From Phascolomyces articulosus (Eukaryota > Mucoromycota > Mucoromycetes > Mucorales > Lichtheimiaceae): a stretch of 64,000 nucleotides of DNA. The position numbers were made by a program, and so were the translations under genes. The notes under the pieces are model-generated. The model was not told where the DNA came from and searched no databases. It worked only from the letters and a program-made list of their open reading frames with translations. Positions 24,494 to 62,650 of this stretch are shown here, piece after piece. The first letter of the stretch is position 1; the number at the start of each line of letters is the position of its first letter. The stretch covers positions 248,001 through 312,000 of the forward strand of contig JAIXMP010000018.1 of NCBI GenBank assembly GCA_025677815.1. Reading direction: 5' to 3'.

Positions 24494-26305
24494 TTACTGA
24501 ATTAAAAATGTTTGCTTGGGTAAACTACAGTCTGAGAAAAATTGATGTCCATATTTTATTTCACAACATCCTATAGCTTTGTAGTGTGTTTCTCCTTGCT
24601 TTTTGTTAATCATAGGATATAATGTCGAAATATTATCTAATTTAAACGAGATGTCAGAAAGTATTACATACTGTTCGGAAAGATCATTCAGCCTGATATC
24701 CTGGGTCAAATTATTAAAATTAAACCTTGTAGCCATTCGATACTCGTCGCTTCTACTATGACACCAGCACAAGTTTTCCATCTTTATGTCCATAAACTTT
24801 GGCAATTGTTGTAGTTCTTTAGATATTTCGTCGAGAGAATCGTTATCCATTTTAAAAATATAATGATAACTATGATGCGTTATTTGGATTCTTTTTTCTT
24901 TGCTTGTTCCAGGCAATTGAATAAGTAAACACAAATAGTAGTTGCGCGGGTTTCCACTGCCACCATTGATATTGTCAGGAGGAGGTGGCAAATCTTCTTT
25001 TCGTAAAGTGAATGGCTTGTCATCAATGTGTTGATTGTTATTCGTAAAATAAGCACTTGTCAAATGTATAGTTTTTCCAATGATATTATAGTTTTGAAAA
25101 GGTGTTGATACATTTTCCAAAAGGTGTTGTCCATGAATACCGGTCCATGATGGCAAAAATGTATACTTTTGAATATGCGTGGAATTATAGTTTTTAGTGA
25201 TTTTTTCAAAAAGTAAAATACTAATATCTTTTTCTGCTAAAAGACCGTAAAATAGAATCATCAACTCCTCAAGGGGTTGATCATAATCGACATTGATTTT
25301 CTTGCCAATATACTTTTTGGTTGAAAAAACTTCAAAAAAACGCCTTCTTATCCACTTTTTGATTCGGTGATGATCGTCTTTTTGGTCAATAAACTCCGGA
25401 AATAGGTTGAGAAGTGCAAAAACACGATCGTGATTTTTGGTGCTTGTTCGTTGATGTGCATAATATAGAATTTGTGATACCATGAGGTTGGATGTTGGGC
25501 TGATTAATTCGTGGATTGAACTGTAACGCACAAAGTTTTCTCCCCATCGATGAATACTCTTGCCGACAAAAAGTAATCTTTTTGATTTGATTGCTTCTTC
25601 TAAAGTCCATAAACGTTTAAAATATTCTTCGGATTCGGATAAATATTCAGTAAATTCAGGCACCAATGCGACAGTGGCATAAGCATGACTGTAGATGTGA
25701 TGCATGTTGCGTATTTCACGTTTCTTTTCTTCCTTGTCGTCTTGGTTGATGCACATTTGATCGAGCCATATATATTTGATGTTAAATTCCTGACATATTT
25801 TCTGAATGATACCTTCAAATTTGACGTATTTCATATCGTTTATCAAATGGCTATATTGATCATCCAAAATTTCCAAAACATTCCTTATTTTTTTCAACCT
25901 TTTAACTTTATCCATTCTGTCTTCATCAATCAAATCGTGAACAAACTTGATCTCGCCATCATAAACAATTTTCTTAGGATCAATATGCTTGCAAAAAACA
26001 ATCTTATGTTTTCCTTCATCGACACGCCTATATTTCGCAGCAGTTTTATCTAGTACCATGTCTCCAGATTGATTCCAGGAATAGGAAAGCGCACAATATC
26101 CTTCGTTCACTTGAGAACTATAAACCAGTTTCATGTCAGAGATACGGACAAGTTTGGTTGGCATGAATTCTGGTTTGGATAATCCATCGGGAACGATTTT
26201 GTTTGGCTGGTTATGTTTAATGTAACGTCCTTTTTTTTCATCCCAGTCATACTGTGAGGTTTCATAGGTAATATACATTTTTTTTTGTTCTATGATAATG
26301 TTCAA
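24494..26305 (-). CDS. HET-domain (heterokaryon-incompatibility type) protein
   Basis: A single uninterrupted frame of 603 aa. The HET core (PF06985) is visible in order: YCALSYSWNQSGD (about residues 70-82), then after a charged insertion KYIWLDQMCINQDDKEEK (about 180-197), IRNMHHIYSHAYATVALVP (about 200-218), and RLWTLEEAIKSKRLLFVG. In ascomycetes this domain triggers programmed cell death on recognition of non-self. In Mucoromycota such proteins occur but their role is not established. The C-terminal 330 aa are not recognised; they contain a Pro-rich stretch (EDLPPPPDNING) and no transmembrane segment. The absence of introns, while almost all neighbours have several, is notable. A second ATG ten codons in (MYITYETS) is an equally good start. 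A TATA-like run lies at about 26378-26392. Confidence 0.85.
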   Translation of the reverse strand: MNIIIEQKKMYITYETSQYDWDEKKGRYIKHNQPNKIVPDGLSKPEFMPTKLVRISDMKLVYSSQVNEGYCALSYSWNQSGDMVLDKTAAKYRRVDEGKHKIVFCKHIDPKKIVYDGEIKFVHDLIDEDRMDKVKRLKKIRNVLEILDDQYSHLINDMKYVKFEGIIQKICQEFNIKYIWLDQMCINQDDKEEKKREIRNMHHIYSHAYATVALVPEFTEYLSESEEYFKRLWTLEEAIKSKRLLFVGKSIHRWGENFVRYSSIHELISPTSNLMVSQILYYAHQRTSTKNHDRVFALLNLFPEFIDQKDDHHRIKKWIRRRFFEVFSTKKYIGKKINVDYDQPLEELMILFYGLLAEKDISILLFEKITKNYNSTHIQKYTFLPSWTGIHGQHLLENVSTPFQNYNIIGKTIHLTSAYFTNNNQHIDDKPFTLRKEDLPPPPDNINGGSGNPRNYYLCLLIQLPGTSKEKRIQITHHSYHYIFKMDNDSLDEISKELQQLPKFMDIKMENLCWCHSRSDEYRMATRFNFNNLTQDIRLNDLSEQYVILSDISFKLDNISTLYPMINKKQGETHYKAIGCCEIKYGHQFFSDCSLPKQTFLIQ

Positions 26306-27729
26306 TAAATTGTTGTCAAGAAGTTAGCTTCAATAATAGTCATTGATAGAAACTCAAAAATTCGTGTTATCGTTTTACATATATATATAAAAGCTGCTAT
26401 ATACAAAAGATGAAATTATTGGTAAACCTGTTAGTGTGGAAACAAGCAGAGGAAATTGATAAGGTACGATGATGCTCTTTTCTCAACAAATCGGTACTCG
26501 AGTGATAGTAAATAATTTTGAAATGGCAGGAAAAAAAAAAAGAATGAATGAAAAGAAAGTGTTTTTCGCAAAAAAAAAAACCAAAAACCAAAAACCAAAA
26601 TGGTTTATAAATATACCTTTTATATGTGTAACATGTTACAAGGTAACCAAGCCTAAAACCAAAAAGACTTGAATTATCAATTTCACATGTATAACAAATT
26701 ATGTATTAATCTTTAATATTTGATGAAAGCATGTTTATATCAGCAAAAAAAAAAAAGAACTATCGCTACAACAGCAAAAGTTATTTCTTGCATAAATAAT
26801 ATTCTCATGGTGTACACATAAGCTACTACTAGCAACATCATTGAAAATATGTAAAGATATAGATGAATCATGTTTTGCTTCTTCTTGAATATATATAGGC
26901 TTGAATCTGATCCCTGGTATATCCCTGGTATATCCCTGGTATATAACAGCAAGAGAGGGTACAGAAGTCATTAACACTAAACAAGTCTAAATTAATTTTA
27001 TCGAAGTATGTACTGAAATTGGAGAGTGTTAAAGATATTGGCAAATACAAAATGATTTCTTTGCTTCAGCCGTAAATGCGTAGAAGACCGGTGCGCAGCG
27101 TTGTACAAATAAGGTTAACGCTGATTTCAAGTGTATAAAAATGTGAGGCAGCTAGATGAAAGAGAAGGTGATAGCTTGTTTAAAGAACTCAGTGATTAAA
27201 CAAACAGGAGATCACATCGACAACACTGAATTGAAGGAAAGGAACTCGCTGTTGTCACCAGATATTACATACAAATTCGCTACGTAATTTTTTAATTATT
27301 TTCTATATTACCTAAAGACAATATTCACTTTTTCAAAAGAAATAAATAATATACAAATCATACATAATCATCGTATTAAAACCTGTATATTTTAATTTCA
27401 TTTCGTCCTTGATTCTATTTTTTCTCTGCACATAAAACTATACTATGGTATTATTTTTCACCGATTCTTATACATAAAATTATTGCTAAAGTTATAGAAT
27501 AACCATTCTTGTAATATCACTTTTAATGACAGTCCTGGAAAAAAAATAGACACTAAGTAGCATAACAATGCCCGCGCTTGGAATTTTGGTCACACCCTCC
27601 AAAATAAGAAATCCATTGCTTTCCTTTTACCCAACATAACACGTTTTTTCTTTTCTCCTTGGCTCATTATTCTATATTTTATAACACGATCTTTTCTCTA
27701 TCCATAATAATATTAATAATAACAGTAAA
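26306..27729. other. Intergenic region between divergent HET and dysferlin-domain genes
   Basis: No gene. Contains a small minisatellite (26912-26944), several A-runs, and the presumed promoters of both flanking genes. Confidence 0.5.
26912..26944 (+). repeat. 11-bp minisatellite, three exact units
   Basis: The unit CCCTGGTATAT occurs three times head to tail without mismatch, preceded by GAT and followed by AACAGC. It lies in noncoding DNA. Confidence 0.85.
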
Positions 27730-48994: not shown

Positions 48995-50630
48995 TCAGTG
49001 AGACACCAGGTTGTTTGGTATAGATGGTGGTGGGGAATCTTTTTGCCGAGGAGGGATCCAAGTTCCTCGTACCCACCAAGACTTGGGTAGTATAGAATGT
49101 TTATCCTTGGTGGCACTATTATATTTGTTGCCTTTAACTGATGTTCTCTTAGACTTTTTAGACGACTTTAGGTTATCAGATGCATTACAAACTTTGACGG
49201 CTTCATCTCGGAAACATAACAATTGTGTGACAGTCTGGAGATAGTTATGATAACTTTGGAGACGATCGTCAAGATGGACATGGTAAACTTCATTACCAAC
49301 ATAAAGACCATTTACAGGTAAGGATAAAGACATAATCATCATTTCAAGTCCACAGAATTGGATACAATAGAGAGTATCAACATCGTGATTATCAAGTAAA
49401 AGGTTATCAATGATAACTTTACTCTCTGAAAATAACTTGCACCTATCCGATTGGTACTTGAATGATCCCGGGTCTCCCTTGGCTGCTTCTGCCACCATCA
49501 AATCTCCTTCTTCACTATAACGCTGAACCATTGCATCATTCAGAACCCTCATATCAACTTTGAAATTCCCATTGGTGCCAATATCCTTCATTGTTAATAC
49601 GGTATCGCCCCATTTTAATCGCAAACCGGTACCGACAAATAACCGTTCTAGCAGGGGACCCCAGAACTTAACGATGTAGTCCCATTCTGATTTATCAACA
49701 TCGTCATTAAAAATATACTTGTGATGCTTTTGCAAATGAAGAAGTGAGCGGTAAAAGTACAGGCAAAAATCCACGTCACGGAGCGACTCCTCCAATTCTG
49801 GATTATACTGACTTTGCAAACTTACAACTTCTTTGAACATACTGATCCAGTTATTTTTATTCGGTTTGCGATCTTTATAAGCGTTGAATATCGGTTTTAA
49901 AATATTACCAAGAGCCGCATACGAGCTACCATCAAGCTGCCTTGGGGGGTACATTTTTGTCAGATCATGCCACTGCGTCTTGTTGAATAAAACCGTTTGG
50001 CGTTCTGGGTACTTTGCAGAGAGATCAAGGATTGAATTCAAACCTAAGCTATTTTAAAATGTTAGAATAAAATATTGATTTTTTATTTGTCTATAATTTA
50101 ATAAATATATGTATATATATATACCATATGATTGATTGGCAGTTTGGATCAAGATGCTGGTAGAGAGAGTGTTTTTGAATAGCAGCATTTTTTATTTTGG
50201 TGCCTACAGACACTTCAACACCATCTACGTAAACCCCATCCTTTTCAATAACCTACATATGTATCATTTGTGTGAGTATACATATACAAAAAAAAAAGGT
50301 CCAGTTAAAAATACGGGCTGAATTACATACTTCTATTGTTTGAGAAAGTAATTGTTGCCGTTTCATTTGCTTTTTCACTTTTTCTTCTTTTCTCGCAACT
50401 TGTTTTCTCATTTGTTCCTCCATGTCATATGCGATAAATACGTTCTGTAGACCTTTTCGTCGCTTATTTGACTGATCGATTTTTTCTTGAATATCAATCT
50501 AAACAAATGGGGTCATTCATTAGTAAATCACCACATGCTGTAAGGTTATCAGTTTCTTGATGATTCTCACTGTCTCATCACTCGAATCGTTTTCCTTGAT
50601 ATCTTGATCCTCGTAATTTCTCTTTGGCAT
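48995..50630 (-). CDS. Intact member of an unrecognised repeated family, possible PD-(D/E)XK-like core
   Basis: Four exons close in phase to 469 aa: 50571-50630, 50331-50498, 50125-50252 and 48995-50048. The start MPKRNYEDQDIKEND leads into a basic coiled coil (EEQMRKQVARKEEKVKKQMKR). A central domain contains VDFCLYFYRSLLHLQ, WDYIVKFWGPLLERLF, LRLKWGDTVL, then NFKVDMRVLND followed about 20 residues later by DLMVAEAAKGD. A later block is LYCIQFCGLEMMIMSLSLPV, and a Lys/Ser-rich tail ends in NNLVSH. I know of no name for this family; similar fragments occur within this window (37985-38621). The Asp ... Glu-x-x-Lys pattern within a strand-rich region hints at a nuclease-type PD-(D/E)XK fold, but this is inference from motif spacing only. 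Confidence 0.7.
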
Positions 50631-51725
50631 TGTAAATAAGATTTATTGAGTGAATAAAAAAAAAAGTGAAAAAGAAAGTGTCCAACCGCGTCAAAGAAAG
50701 TTTTGTGATTAATGGGATTAATCGTTTCCAGAAATTAAGTCATAAAAAGAGAAAAAACGGCGGTCCTACAATGCTCAGGGGATTTTCGCCCAATGATATT
50801 TCGATATAGTGGAGCCAATCAAAAAGCTCCATTACATTATTTTAGTCGTAGTACTGTTAGACTGTCACACTAAATCAATAATTCAGAATAAATAAACGGC
50901 TGATCCATACCCAAATATAATAAGAAGACAGAGATATAGCGACTGCAACAACAGAGATACAACGATGACAATAAAAGATAAAGACTGAAAGCGAGCGATA
51001 CAAAACAATAAGATGAGTTAAATAACTATATCGACATTATTTCCATTAATAAACTATAAATTATCCTTAATCCAAATAGACTTCTTGTTCCTTCATATAC
51101 TCGAGTTATGATAAAGACGAAACCAGCGCGAAACTAGATCAATAAGGCGAAAATTTTATATGATGAGAAAAGAAGAGAAGGGAGGTGTTGTTGCTTTATA
51201 TACGGTATCAAAATGCTTAAATATCAATGCTCATTCAAAATAGGAGAACCTTGACTGAATATAAAATATAATAGAACTACGTCATTACAATTTCCTTATT
51301 GCTACAGTAGGTATATATACTTGTTTCATGTTGCATTTGATGAATTTTAAATTTCTATAAAAAAAGATTCCGTAGTGGACTAACTTATCCAAGTGCGAAA
51401 GAGGCGAATAACAACCTGATTTGCATACAATTAATATTTAAATAATTTACATATTCACATCAATCCATTGCAGCTACTACACATCACAGTGAATGTGTAC
51501 ATTATTATATACAACCTATTTCATTGTAAGTAATGATCCTGTAGGTGTGAATATATTTATTAAAACTATTAACTATAAATAATACTTCTCATCAAAAGGA
51601 GCGTTGTTTATAAATTTCGGAATTTTTTTTTATTTGTGGGGTAAACCCGAAAACACGCGACGCGCTTTTCTTCTAAACTTTATTTTTTTGTTTCCTCCAT
51701 CACTCACATTGTAATATGAATCCAA
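50631..51725. other. Divergent spacer between the hypothetical family gene and the Fanzor locus
   Basis: About 1.1 kb with no gene. The right end has a short GC-richer patch (51640-51680, GTAAACCCGAAAACACGCGA) just upstream of the Fanzor ATG, likely promoter. I looked for a terminal inverted repeat matching DNA beyond 58060 and did not find one by eye. Confidence 0.5.
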
Positions 51726-54700
51726 ATGTCGACTTCAACAGCAACACCACAGCAAGCTGCAACCCTGATTAAAGAGGGATCTTTGGAGACAGGAAAACGG
51801 AAATACACAAAAACATCAAAGATTGACAAAGAAACAATTATCGAATTACTAAATGAAGTATTACAACAAAAGCTTAAGGAGATCGTTCATGAAAATGCAT
51901 CAAAATACACCAAGGACGAGTTTGTTACTTTTCTGGAAAAGAGAATCAATTGCCCTAAAGGTACAATGGAAATGGTAGCACAATTAGCCAAATAACGACA
52001 TGGAATAGATCGAACCGCCAAACAAATCAGCAAGATTTTAGGGGGACGACTAAAAGCACCTGGCAGATGATCAAAAAAACATTATGAAAACTGTATAATG
52101 AATTTAAAGATAATGCTTCTACAAACAAATCAACAACAGCAACAGCAACAGCAACAAAAAAATCTTCTAAAAATGACAACGACGACGAAGACAAGGTTGA
52201 TGATAAAAACAAACGCACAAGCTCAATCATCGGGATCAGCAACATTTTACGGGAAGACGTGTCTCATGAACATGTGCAAAAAGCGATCAGTCAAGCTGCA
52301 GCTCATACCACAACGGCTGTCTCAAACGTCAGCGTTTTGGTGAGAATGTCCTTATGCAAGTTGGCTCAGCATCAAATCACTATCAAGGATGACAATGCTC
52401 AATTAAAAAAAGAACAATCTGGCTTCCAAATGTCAAAAGTATTCCCAGCGTCTTTTACCATACGAGATAAAAGACCTATGGATGAAAAGGGGAAGGTTAT
52501 GATTTCAAAATCAAACATTCCATTGAAAGAGAAACTTGAAAAAGTATACAAACCAAAGACTGGCGCCAGTGATCTGCAAAGTCTGTTTTCTAACAATCAC
52601 CTCCAGCACATACAATCACATCATCTCAGGGATAAAAAGAACAGCACAAACGACCCGAATCACCCTTTTTGGTATGATTTAACGTTCAAAAACTGCAACC
52701 TTCCCTCCATACCACAAGGCATAAGCACCACTATAGAATCTGACATAAAGGAGTTTAGTACAAACTTCAAAAACATGTGGGACGGGACAAAAATCTATAA
52801 GCGTGTAGAAAGAAAAGTTATTCGCGTTCTTTTACGACTTCATCTCGCCCCAACACGTGAAGCTACATATATGGAACGTGTAAAAAAAGCAAAGCAGGCC
52901 GCGTCAAAGAAAATGCTAGGTATTAACAAGACGCAACAATCTGATGAAATGGGCCAACCATCCAAAACTCTATCTCGAAAACAAATCAAGTCAAAGATAC
53001 AGCATGAACGTCTTCAAATTAAAAGGCATCAGAAAAAAGCCCAATCCGACGAAAGCAACAAAGAAAAGTACCATAGACGAATACATTCGTGTGAAAAACG
53101 TATACATAAATTGGAATCTTTGATGGAGAATCTAGACCAGGTACTGCCCATATTGATTACTTTTATGATTTTTTTTAAAAAAAGTTAAATGATTTAGATG
53201 ACTTACTAACAACTCTACAGAGAGATGAATCCAATATATATCCCAATGACAAAGAGAGGAGCACGACACCGGAAATACTTAAGGTAATTCATAATTAGTG
53301 CAGTTTTATTATCGACGTAAAAAAATACTTATTTATTGTACTTGTACCTATATCAATATAGTCTGCTGTTCAAGACGCAAAAACTCTTGGTGCCAGTGAT
53401 ATAATCGAAAAATGGGAAAAAGAGGCAGAAGAAGCGGAAGAAATAGAAGGAGAGAAAGATGGTGAAGTAAAAAGGAAAGCACAAGATAGCACTGGAACGA
53501 CGGGAAGTAAAAAGGCCGAAAAAGCGACTGATAAACAGCAACAACAACGAAAGGATACAAGTGCAGGACGTATTCGAATACTGGAAGGTAATACAATACT
53601 TAAATGAAATCATTCTATTTGATGAAAATGTTCCTTAAGTTATAGAATCTAAAGATTATCTGAAATGTTTATAGGTGTGATCAAGGCACTATTAAAAAGC
53701 AAAAAAATTGACCGTGCTGGCAATTTAACCGATGAACAAATCCTAAAAACCAGCCATAACAAATCACTCAAAGCAAATGAAGTAGAGACAATCAAGCTTA
53801 TAACAAATCAACTGCTACCATACTCACCTGATTCAGAATCCATGTGTCTATTGACACAGTTGCCTTTCATCATGTTAGGAAATGCGATTTTGATGGCTGC
53901 TGGGTACAATGATTATGTTCAAGATATTTCCCCTGATGTTCCTCCTCACAAGATTCATACCTTAGCTATCAACCCAGCCATCATATATGAAACATTAACA
54001 CCACATGAAGATGATATTCCTCAGGGTCCATTTCAAGTTACCCCTGTTGGAAGCAGCGAACCAATTACTTCTTCATATGCTGCTCGCAAAGATGGGGACG
54101 CTATGTGGTGGTCTTTCTTCGATTACATGAAGGTCAAGAGATTGTGTGATATGCATAAGATGGTTTTTGCCAACCGGGTGGTGGTTCGTCCTGACAAGAC
54201 AATGTCCTTACTAGGCACAATCAAAAACAATCACACACCAATTATATCAGAATACGAGAAACGACAAAAGAAGAAGCGTAAAAGCAAGAAGAGTAGTTAT
54301 ATCACCATCCTCCCTCATCTTGTAGGAAAACCTAAAAGTCAGTTGGAACAAGATCTGGAATCTGTAGAAGGATCGATCACTGAGCTACAAACAACCCAAA
54401 CTGAATTGAAAAAGCAATCAGGGCAAGCAACCAAAGTATGGCAAACTACAAAAGACGAATTGAAGAATAGCAAGGGCAAAGTGAAACAATTACTTAGCAA
54501 AAAACTAAAAGATGATGTCCAAGAGAAGAGAAAAGCGAATAGTTTGCTCTAGCTTGTGCAAAGGAAAATCAAGGACTTTTGTAGTATGAAATATCAGTTG
54601 AACAAAGTGGCTATCTTTATTGTTATTCTTGTATTATTTAATCTTTTTTTTTTTGCGTTTCTTATTAAGCTCCTTATGTTACCAATAGGCCATTGATCAT

Positions 54701-56461
54701 TATGGAAAAAATGACCCGCCCTCTTCTGTTCCACCTACAACACCAACACCAACTAGAATGCAACATGAAGATATTTCAGCAAATATTGATGTTTCTAAAC
54801 TTGATATGAACAAATGTGTATATGGAGCAACAGATTATGGCCATGTAGTGTTATCTCAAACAGTTCCATTAACGAACAACGATATACGCTTCCATGTGGA
54901 TTTGTACAACAAGCAACAACAACACCAACAACGACAGCTACAAATTATTGATAATATGCAGGATACTGAAAAAACGGAACAAGACGTTGTTGAAAAACAA
55001 CAGCCTGATATGAAACATGATGTATCTGACGAAAAAAGCAAATCACAGGATTTACAACAGCAACACGAGCAGTTTGAGGAAATGCATTGTAACCGGGTCA
55101 TACATTCAAGTCATGAAGTTGATTTTATATCATTGACAGATGATGCTTTAAAAAATGACCAGCTGGAAAAACTAGGGATAATGCTGGATAATGAGATCAA
55201 ATTTATGAAGACAGTGTTTTCCGTTGAAGATCTGAAATTAACAAAACCATTTTCAATAACAAACGAACAAGTCCACAAAGAGTCATTTGCCACGAAGTTT
55301 GCCAGAAGGAGGGAAAAGCGTAAAAAGGTTGGTGACTGAAGATATATAAAAAGTAAAAAGTAAAGTAACCATTAATATATTGAGTATTGTACTCTTTCAA
55401 TATTTCAATAGCGAAAAAAGAATAAGAAGGTTGTTCTTGCTGAGGAACAATTAAAGTCATGCTCTTTTACTGGTATTATTGACCCAGATGAATTATTGCG
55501 CTGTCAAAAGGTAATCATCCTAAGAGTTATATATTTTTGGAATATAGTATGATTGCTCATCATTTTATATATATATATATATATATATGATAGGTACGAC
55601 TTTTTGTAAAAAATGTTCTTCGTGAATTTTACTATTGCCCAGCAACTATGAACGAACATCGACATCAGTACGTGGCGAGTCATAATATTTATGTCAAGCT
55701 GGCCCGGAAAGAACTTTAATATGTTAAAAAATCATGTGCTGCCAAACTCCCGTACCATCGAAAGCAATTAAAAGTAATGATGCTGTAAGTCTTTTTTTAT
55801 TATTCTATTGATAAATGTGTTCAATTCTTTGAATCTATCCTTTTTGATATCATTTCAAGATTAAGACTAACCTTACACACATGAATTAATAGTATTGGTC
55901 TTGCAGGGATGGGTTTCAATACCTTTCTGAAAGGAAGGCCCCGAAGAGGAGGCAAGAGGGTTCGAAAGGCGCACCGCACATCAACAACAGTTGCCTTGCA
56001 GAATGAACTTATGCCAAGTCAGATATGCGTATTTTGTTTCCAACCACCCAGTCTACTGCCAGCAACTATACTCAAAGATGGAAAAAAACAAAAAAAGCAC
56101 TCGCATGGTACGCTTACATGCAACAACAGTAACTGTCCAGCAGTATTAGCCGGATATACTACTTTCAACAGAGATGCTGTTGGCGCAACCGGTATTGGGT
56201 TAGCTGCGGTCACAACAATTTTTTCAAGCGACAAGAAACCTCTCCCGCCCTATAACCCATCAGCATCCACAACTACCACAGCAACTACCACCAGTCATTT
56301 CGAACTGGATCAAATCTATCGTTTGGTCTCGCCATCATCAACTTTTTTGCATGGTACGTAAATTTTTTATACTTCTACATAATAAATTTTATAACTTAAA
56401 AAACATCAAGCTACAAATACTTATTTATTTGTGTATAGGTGCAGGTCAAACATCCATGTAA
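51726..56461 (+). pseudogene. Fanzor (eukaryotic TnpB-like RNA-guided nuclease), probably decayed
   Basis: Exons with coding character: 51726-51960 or longer, 52140-53140, 53185-53283, 53362-53587, 53675-54606, 54689-55327, 55412-55510, 55594-55784, 55893-56353 and 56439-56461. RuvC-I is KCVYGATDYGHVVLSQTVP (Asp codon 54833-54835). Near the end come LIGLAGMGFNTFLKGRPRRGG, a Glu in LQNELMPSQICVFCF, a CX2C...CX4C zinc finger (CVFC, CNNSNC) and FNRDAVGATGIGLAAVTT, the TnpB-type NRD RuvC-III motif. Length and Lys-rich inserts fit Fanzor1 proteins. Breaks: TAA 51993, a frameshift near 52055, TGA near 52089, TAG 54550 and TAA 55717. The first three could be skipped by an in-frame intron 51961-52139 and TAG 54550 by a GTATGG donor at 54436. 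I see no way round 55717. The usual GD at the LIGLAG site is missing. Confidence 0.82.
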
Positions 56462-56689
56462 TTTCATGGACTTTTTCGTAGCACTTTAATGTAGTCACTC
56501 CGCCTTCCCCTAGACATATTATGTGTACCGAAAAAGCAACCGACTAAAATTGTCCTTTGTACCAGAACGTTTTATTTTATAGTTTACTTATTAATTATTA
56601 CTAACAAACAACTTAATGTTGTTTTTATACACGTTTATATAGATCAATTTTTTTTTATCTTAGGAAGAGTTTGTTGTGTTGAGGATATG
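56462..56689. other. Short gap between Fanzor and MULE 3' ends
   Basis: About 230 bp, AT-rich. It starts with a small hairpin overlapping the Fanzor stop (CCATG-TAATTT-CATGG, 56454-56469). It is the region where a Fanzor guide RNA could overlap the 3' UTR, but no structure stands out beyond short stems. Confidence 0.4.
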
Positions 56690-61274: not shown

Positions 61275-61870
61275 TTGGTTTATTTCGAAGATCAAGTCTT
61301 TTATATGCAAAATGGTGATGAGGTTTTTTTTACTGCATTGCTTTTTATTTCAAATATACACTGTTGGTTGCCAATAAATTTACATCACTATTTCCATAAA
61401 TGGAAGGCGTTACGTTATAGACAGACAACTAAACGCAACTGTAATGATAATCAACACCTATCTCGCAATCATGTTATATCTTGCTTCAATGTCCATACAC
61501 TTCTTAATATACCATATGTTGTCCCTGATCCGATATCATTCGTGCTCAACTCACTACCAACCAAACGACCAACATCCGATTCAAAAAAACGATACTGGAA
61601 ATATATTTGGCCTCGACTTACTAGACTTATGAAAGAAATTGACCGCCTATGCCATGACGATGACTTGCGAGAAAACGACTCAGATCAACCACTCAGCATC
61701 AAAAATGATTTCATAATGTGGATCGATCAACCAAATACAGATTCAGCTCACAGATCACCTTCTACTTCTCAATATACTCTTACACAGCATTCTTCTGATT
61801 AATCTTTCCCTTTTCTTTTCCTATATCTCAACTATATTAGTATCTACATCAACCAAAAAAAAAAAAAAGC
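61275..61870 (+). pseudogene. 3' end of a LINE-like reverse transcriptase, 5'-truncated
   Basis: A frame ending at 61802 reads SCFNVHTLLNIPYVVPDPIS then FVLNSLPTKRPTSDSKKRYW and KYIWPRLTRLMKEIDRLCHD. It resembles, from memory, the extreme C-terminus of non-LTR reverse transcriptase polyproteins common in Mucoromycota (…LP..RP....KRYW...WP...+....ID.L). No RT or endonuclease motifs precede it, which fits 5' truncation. An A15 run at about 61855-61870 would serve as the 3' poly-A tail. The family call rests on this short segment only. Confidence 0.45.
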
Positions 61871-62650
61871 AAAACATACATATTCGTTAACCAAGTTCAT
61901 TCTTTAAATATATAACAATACCCATATTCTCTTCCTTGTTTTAGCACTTTATTTCCCTTCAGCTAGCATTTTACCCTTACGATAGTTCACTTTTTCTTCT
62001 TTATTCATTTTCCCCCTCTATCTTATGGGGTTTTTTTCACCAGTCCTTGAGATCCGGCTTTAGCGGGTATGCGATTTGCGAAGCGCTTTTTTGAAGCCTT
62101 TATTATTTTGTAAATGATAAATAAACTATATTAAGTTTGATCCAGACAGGCAGCCAAACCAAATCCTAAAGGCGCTTTTCGTACTCCATATAAAACACCT
62201 TAAAAGGGAGCTGAGTTAGTGGCGGCTAATTTAATTTTTTCATGACGTAGATTTTTTTTGGGGATGATTAGATTTTTCGAGTTTGCTGAAGTGATCCACC
62301 ATCATGCTTCGATAATGGTGTAGGTAAAATTGCAGGTAACTAATCTTTTCATTTTAATTTTTATAATAAGATATACTCACTTTTCTTTTATTTAAACCCT
62401 TCTGGATCAATCCTAAATCTAATTAGAAAAATCAGAAAGTTAATCGAAAGCGGCAGGCTATCATCTGTGCATTATGAGCGTTATTCTAATACTCTGGCTA
62501 ATATGGACTGGGTAACTATCCATAACTTTGAGACACTCCTAAAGTCTTTTTTCCAATAGTACAATAATGCCTAAATTAATCTCCACCAAGCAGTTTGACT
62601 CAATAATAGACTATAATGGTAACCTGGTATTAAATCAATCAGTTAATTAC
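61803..62650. other. Noncoding stretch before the tandem repeats
   Basis: No gene. A GC-richer patch at about 62039-62100 and segments at 62400-62560 look unlike the surrounding AT-rich spacer and may belong to the same repeat family as the tandem array, but I cannot align them to it. Confidence 0.4.

Follow-up and report, generated by a model that had tools for sequence, protein, structure and literature searches.

A broken mobile-element copy that probably encoded a divergent Fanzor1-type protein in Phascolomyces articulosus

Fanzors are eukaryotic RNA-guided DNA cutters. To what extent does a large Fanzor-like gene in the fungus Phascolomyces articulosus (Mucorales, Lichtheimiaceae) still encode such an enzyme, and what carries it? 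The gene lies on the plus strand of a 64,000-nucleotide stretch, hereafter the window, which comprises bases 248001-312000 of contig C21 in the 47.4-Mb assembly; window positions are counted from its first base. We find that it belongs to a mobile-element copy that is dead, and that the gene of this element is kept intact in a sister copy, C22. We further consider it likely that the only recognised gene of the element specifies a large, divergent Fanzor1-type RuvC protein, with a putative omega-RNA at the right end and a part in the copying of the element.

Limits, copies and gene model of the element

The element spans about 5.77 kb (50760..56529, plus strand), as determined by similarity to its long copies (approximately 50746-56535) with the limits set against target-site duplications. 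Comparison of the flanks placed the left duplication, GAAAAAACG, at 50751..50759 and the right duplication, GAAAAAGCA, at 56530..56538, where the presumed guide region also starts; as a pair the window's own duplications have decayed. Searching the genome with the right end returned 10 places, all of the window family, and searching with the left end returned 11, seven of them of the window family and four of other sequence. The family was counted at 12 loci, including C23, which lacks the 3′ part, and C32, which consists of internal pieces, and as the end searches give a lower bound there are at least 12. Both ends are visible in six copies, and the true pairing of their left and right flanks scored best, being the only one among 720 permutations to reach the observed score. 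This test was confined to the six copies with both ends, left out C21b, whose left duplication has perhaps decayed, and scored the letters after the A-run. The duplications measure 7-11 bp and start with GAAAAA in all seven left flanks that can be read; in the remainder of the window this hexamer has a frequency of 0.0015 per site. Directly 5′ of GAAAAA, six of the seven copies have RGN, a candidate target-adjacent motif. At the right junctions GTAC[CT]GAAA is found in 6 of 10 places, and the G is absent in the other four (C45, C13a, C61 and C2). The left ends start at positions that differ among copies by as much as about 20 nt, and the 3′ end is nearly fixed. The copies, their common right end and the duplications place the gene in a eukaryotic mobile element, as is expected of a Fanzor1.

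Within the element the gene runs from an ATG at 51726 to a TAA ending at 56461, exactly the limits (51726..56461) that had been proposed in an initial annotation of this DNA. That annotation described roughly ten exons; the multi-exon structure holds, but our model has nine, separated by eight GT-AG introns of 78-108 nt. On the plus strand these are exon 1 (51726..53140), exon 2 (53221..53283), exon 3 (53362..53587), exon 4 (53675..54606), exon 5 (54689..55327), exon 6 (55412..55510), exon 7 (55594..55784), exon 8 (55893..56353) and exon 9 (56439..56461, including the stop codon). The NCBI model of the C45 copy (P0003) has identical joins at KAI, KKRK, QKVR, MMLIGL and GAGQTSM, and the joins of exons 6 and 9 are among those it shares with our model.

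The locus recognised in the initial annotation is real, but the annotation had overlooked the damage to the gene and the 5.8-kb mobile element around it. Relative to C22, the window copy has three stops in register and four indels that break the reading frame; exon 1 carries an in-frame stop and a frameshift, the splice donor that follows exon 4 has changed, and exon 7 carries a further in-frame stop. The sister copy C22 (L009), which is 94% identical to the window copy across 5.8 kb, yields one open frame of 1342 codons when spliced, and the remaining long copies (C45, C21 near 541 kb and C66) are each broken as well. Because the four other long copies match the window at 92-95% DNA identity, the locus is more than a chance arrangement of reading frames. 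The ratio of nonsynonymous to synonymous substitution rates (dN/dS), calculated for the five long copies only, to the exclusion of C23, C32 and those with truncations or deletions, was 0.29-0.50 in nine of 10 pairs and 0.74 in one, indicating that the protein was under purifying selection during the spread of the family. We conclude that the window holds a dead copy of the element and that an intact gene is kept in C22.

Catalytic layout and relationship to Fanzor1

The three motifs singled out in the initial annotation, GATDYG, LQNELMPSQICVFCF and FNRD, are all found in the window copy. Exon 5 holds the RuvC-I Asp of ATDYG (54833-54835), and exon 8 holds the shifted Glu (56005-56007), the four Cys codons of the zinc finger (starting at 56026, 56035, 56119 and 56134) and the RuvC-III Asp (56173-56175). 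In C22 the corresponding residues are the Asp of ATDYG at 925, E1224, the first Cys at 1231 and the NRD Asp at 1280. The proposal that the Glu had moved to a position just ahead of the finger was confirmed: six residues lie between E1224 and Cys 1231, and the Glu of a protein from Circinella minor (P0001, 1280 aa) is likewise six residues ahead of the finger. The finger itself is of the C4 type, CX2C...CX4C. The layout of Bao and Jurka, D...[TS][TS]xx-C4 finger...RD, is present in C22 and in Circinella, and the Ser pair of this motif has decayed to PS in the window copy. In PMC10711439 (Yoon et al. 2023; PMC10432273 is by Saito et al.), the alternative Glu of Fanzors is defined as lying six residues before the zinc finger.

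Databases list the relatives that we found simply as hypothetical or uncharacterized. The comparison with known Fanzors runs through a sister family. A search with the C-terminal 723 residues matched P0001 at 56% identity, and residues 1-192 of P0001 are 45% identical to the C23 copy (E 1e-47). The sister family is a DPG-type Mucorales Fanzor family, represented by C31, C33 and C1 in the same genome and by P0002 in Zychaea mexicana; unlike the window family it has DPG in RuvC-I, and its motifs DPG, NE[HF]RSSKTC and NRD occur in the same order as those of the window family. BLASTP of P0001 against P0002 gave two collinear regions (E 2e-10 and 1e-7). The first, at 25% identity, corresponds to the end of exon 3 and exon 4, a stretch that is REC/WED-like by position only. 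When the window and sister families were kept apart, hhalign joined them over the finger and RuvC-III at 97.5% (E 8.7e-12). A mixed profile of both families had SpuFz1 as its top match among solved structures (E 9.7e-5), and a further mixed profile (A8) reached PpFz1 at 1.7e-8, SpuFz1 at 9.4e-7 and GtFz1 at 2.4e-4. Since A8 includes a canonical Fanzor row from C23, the search was repeated with that row removed (A10); PpFz1 (1.5e-4) and SpuFz1 (5.1e-4) were matched more weakly and were still top-ranked.

Several results weigh against membership in Fanzor1. RuvC-I reads DYG (ATDYG) in all five long copies and in Circinella P0001 and P0004, an assignment made between two BLASTP anchors on a MAFFT alignment, and according to PMC10711439, nearly all Fanzors have DPG there. 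The gap from the Asp to the Ser pair in C22 is 301 residues, with a Gln-rich insertion between them, which lies beyond the 125-275 residues from D to [TS][TS] that Bao and Jurka (PMC3627910) give for Fanzor1. The NCBI model P0003 skips the Glu stretch. Profiles of the window family alone matched no solved Fanzor, nor did the sister family alone, as one sequence or as a two-row profile, and Pfam TNB scored the window family below threshold (E 0.038 and 0.07), with a piece of C31 from the sister family just under the cut-off (E 9.5e-5). AlphaFold2 models of the Zychaea relative and of P0003 had mean predicted local distance difference test (pLDDT) values of 46.1 and 34.8 and were unusable. The other searches were empty: phmmer returned no solved structure for the C-terminal half, single exon pieces drew only chance matches from Pfam, NCBIfam assigned no TnpB name, and 120 pattern matches in viral contigs contained no confirmed relative at the sensitivity of the search. 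The identification of a Fanzor-type protein with a shifted Glu is thus upheld by the motif layout and the mixed-profile matches, but with DYG in place of DPG and in a copy that is dead; a match to TnpB/Fanzor profiles was obtained with the mixed profiles and not with Pfam TNB or the family-only ones. As neither family alone reaches the solved Fanzors, membership rests on the bridge through the sister family together with the motif layout, and since a strict DPG definition excludes the family, we file it as a divergent variant and not as a typical member.

Two other accounts of the protein bear on these points. It could be an ordinary fungal zinc-finger gene family whose likeness to Fanzors arose by chance, an idea that gains something from the failure of family-only profiles to find solved Fanzors and from the sub-threshold Pfam scores. 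We regard it as extremely improbable given two separate stretches that align collinearly with a DPG Fanzor family, the exact spacing of the Glu, and the presence of element ends and duplications. Alternatively, the protein could be a Fanzor-derived binder of guide RNA and DNA that no longer cuts, with a regulatory or transposition-regulating role, after drift of its RuvC-I motif from DPG to DYG. The replacement is indeed present in five of five long copies and in the two Circinella proteins; C22 and Circinella retain the complete Asp-Glu-Asp set, however, and according to PMC10711439 the Asp of bacterial TnpB usually stands before a hydrophobic residue, so we judge a non-cutting protein unlikely. 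We regard the family as homologous to Fanzor1 by way of the sister family and, as a divergent variant, as probably working like Fanzor1s.

Compared with the solved Fanzor1s of Parasitella (PpFz1), Spizellomyces (SpuFz1) and Guillardia (GtFz1), the family shares the Asp, the Glu six residues before the finger, the CX2C...CX4C finger and NRD. It differs from them in having DYG and not DPG, a length of 1342 aa, the 301-residue gap and no detectable terminal inverted repeat. PMC10432273 and PMC11423790, the latter a 2024 structural study, indicate that GtFz1 has Asn at the RuvC-III NRD, and that SpuFz1 is likewise borne by an element, with the right end of the element beside the gene. An exception to DPG that is conserved in two genera and has been under selection offers a test of which RuvC-I residues a eukaryotic RNA-guided nuclease needs.

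A candidate omega-RNA at the right end

The last part of the element has features that would suit an omega-RNA scaffold, which we provisionally place by predicted fold at 56439..56535 on the plus strand. The prediction has a hairpin around the stop codon (56453-56458 with 56465-56470), a helix of 56472-56478 with 56529-56535, in which six of the seven 3′ bases belong to the target-site duplication, and a helix of 56481-56484 with 56523-56526. Over their last 91 nt the old copies C35, C13b and C61 share 86-90% identity with C22; the values are 74-93% for the next three 100-nt blocks upstream and 46-81% for the five beyond, the farthest blocks of C35 lying at or past the end of its match. When nine bases of flank are included, UUUUUCG of the right end can pair with the last C of the element and the duplicated GAAAAA. 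Seven of the 10 right ends (window, C22, C66, C45, C21b, C35 and C13a) have this helix, or the U/A portion of it, when folded to minimum energy.

Controls for this pairing gave mixed results. Dinucleotide-shuffled right ends, run for the window, C22, C35 and C13b, gained as much energy in 0/400 cases for the window, 4/400 for C22 and 0/400 for C35, and TTTTTCG arose in 25 of 5000 shuffled right ends. Random genomic 9-mers, tried on the window, C22, C66, C61, C45 and C21b, equalled the true flank in 1/300 cases for the window and 19/300 for C21b. Across the alignment 90.3% of cells can make the predicted pairs, compared with 31-53% when the structure is slid, a figure that is biased upward relative to the slid versions as the structure was derived from the same sequences. 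Against the pairing stand the remaining comparisons. The helix is absent from the minimum-energy fold of C61, C13b and C2 (3/10), C13b gains nothing (400/400 shuffles do as well), and random 9-mers equalled the true flank in 28/300 cases for C22, 88/300 for C66, 189/300 for C45 and 300/300 for C61. The helix shows no compensatory change, observed values being not above a letter-shuffle control, and without the flank the right end folds no better than shuffles (z -0.86 and -1.34; -1.41 with 39 more upstream bases) and shows no covariation. Rfam returned a single sub-threshold chance match for the right end.

A precedent for such an arrangement exists, as PMC10711439 describes a duplicated target sequence that is predicted to form part of Fanzor reRNA scaffolds. 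The duplicated target of SfAV Fanzor1 and of Fanzor2* is predicted there to pair within the scaffold, like that of the window family; those cases come with terminal inverted repeats and small-RNA sequencing, whereas the present element is fungal, has no detectable repeats of this kind, and its fold is a prediction only. The pairing potential of our right ends suggests that the omega-RNA scaffold incorporates the target site, in line with what the same source predicted for other Fanzors, and a short target sequence duplicated at insertion may in this way be taken into the guide RNA of the element itself. As the family has several copies that share one target motif, it is a natural setting in which to examine the idea of an insertion site folded into a guide-RNA scaffold.

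A mechanism can be proposed from these features. In intact copies the transcript would start at the left end, near its CCAAT boxes, the nine-exon mRNA would give the protein, and the right end of the transcript, overlapping the stop codon, would serve as the omega-RNA. The duplicated GAAAAA would close the scaffold stem with UUUUUC of the right end and, as it would thereby complete the scaffold, the true guide would begin a few bases into the flank and consist of the host DNA past GAAAAA. A complex of the protein and this RNA would then cleave the corresponding unoccupied site on the sister or homologous chromosome, and repair templated by the chromosome that carries the element could restore or spread it. 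Moves to new sites would depend on machinery encoded elsewhere.

Movement, related elements and neighbouring sequences

How the element reaches new sites was considered from its ends and its coding content. No terminal inverted repeat was detectable, as 281 of 2000 shuffled end pairs align equally well, and Pfam found no recombinase or transposase domain in five exon pieces, the C-terminal half of C22 and the whole of Circinella P0001, the 5′ untranslated part not being scanned separately. The serine recombinase TnpA that marks Fanzor2/IS607 elements was thus not seen in those scans. Two sources of mobilising activity would be compatible with the Fanzor1-type reading. The first is a MuDR-type transposase acting in trans, as Bao and Jurka suggested for three Fanzor elements of Mucorales: 9-bp duplications are found at C22 and C13b, and PMC3627910 reports that Rhizopus, Phycomyces and Mucor have Fanzor elements of MuDR type whose duplications are 9 bp long. 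We hold this to be possible but doubtful, since no terminal inverted repeat accompanies the 9-bp duplications, duplication length ranges over about 7-11 bp and left ends vary by up to about 20 nt. The second is a one-ended or target-primed process anchored at the 3′ end and using Helitron2-like or retroelement machinery in trans, to which we give somewhat more credence while still holding it tentatively. Here the 10 right ends agree within one or two bases where the 5′ starts are ragged, and 5′-truncated copies, A-rich duplications of variable length and a possible right-end relic on C46 point the same way; similar behaviour has been described for Chlamydomonas CRe Fanzor elements and for Mucor MCi-2 (PMC3627910). 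On the other side, the copies keep their introns, which is unexpected from spliced RNA, the truncation of C35, C61 and C13a, where no clear left duplication is present, may be later deletion or decay, and the C46 relic is ambiguous. A third scheme would have the landing site chosen by RNA, with UUUUUC of the right end recognising genomic GAAAAA and the Fanzor cut joining the fixed 3′ end first, a transposase-free self-insertion that completes its own scaffold. We consider this very unlikely.

The C46 site (C46:305802-305828, L054) is a possible solo right-end relic between open reading frames (ORFs), with 21 exact bases made up of 15 from the element's 3′ end plus GAAAAA, and perhaps a duplication of its own. 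Another right-end search gave 49 matches against 40 in a reversed control, so its weak matches are meaningless. Right-end-like sites at C30 and C21:164155 were dropped as, by eye, the similarity goes no further.

Among described elements, MCi-2 of Mucor circinelloides (Bao and Jurka 2013, PMC3627910) is one of the closest counterparts. It shares fuzzy 5′ ends, the lack of a terminal inverted repeat and duplications with a fixed start, and it has a near-constant 6-kb 3′ region, as does the window element. Its duplications are 11-12 bp, ATAATTNNNN(N), compared with about 7-11 bp starting GAAAAA. Our literature search, with most subscription papers outside its scope, found no publication on the Fanzors of Mucoromycota or early-diverging fungi as such, or on Phascolomyces articulosus. 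Another Fanzor survey from 2023 reportedly may list Mucorales members. With the element described here, the set of unclassified Fanzor elements from Mucorales grows by one.

Near the left end a stretch with two CCAAT boxes (50780..50819, plus strand) is common to other genome sites and could act as a promoter. Its motif, GTTTTCTCGTCCAATGATATTTTGATATAGTG, has 14 genome matches with up to three mismatches, nine of them outside the left ends of the family, and none in a reversed control. We considered the motif as the mark of a parent transposon and checked it at C28, C56 and two C45 sites; none had the right end, and ORFs at one C45 site, which by eye we judged to be transposase scraps, were not named by Pfam. 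The motif is therefore regarded as promoter-like. The only perfect match lies downstream of an adenylate kinase-like gene, named by eye. About 1 kb from the C28 copy of the motif is a degenerate exon-4-like stretch (L046, 2479-2892, minus strand; E 1.5e-5 to P0001).

Elsewhere in the genome, Fanzor-like fingers above the Pfam TNB cut-off were found at C23:1327991-1328215, C45:1634757 and C27:718569, the one on C23 reading SEIRTSKEC...NRDVNAARNI. When the window family and the DPG-type sister family are counted as well, Phascolomyces articulosus has at least three distinct Fanzor families. Within the window, a 352-aa ORF just left of the element (48998-50053, minus strand) had no Pfam match at E 0.01. 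Farther left, a 609-aa ORF (24497-26323, minus strand) carries a HET (heterokaryon incompatibility) domain (E 2.1e-15), and an ORF with a similar start is found near the DPG-type Fanzor at C1 (L026). To the right, 61434-62000 is a repeat, perhaps mobile, that is 95-96% identical to DNA 5′ of the DPG-type Fanzor loci C33 and C1.

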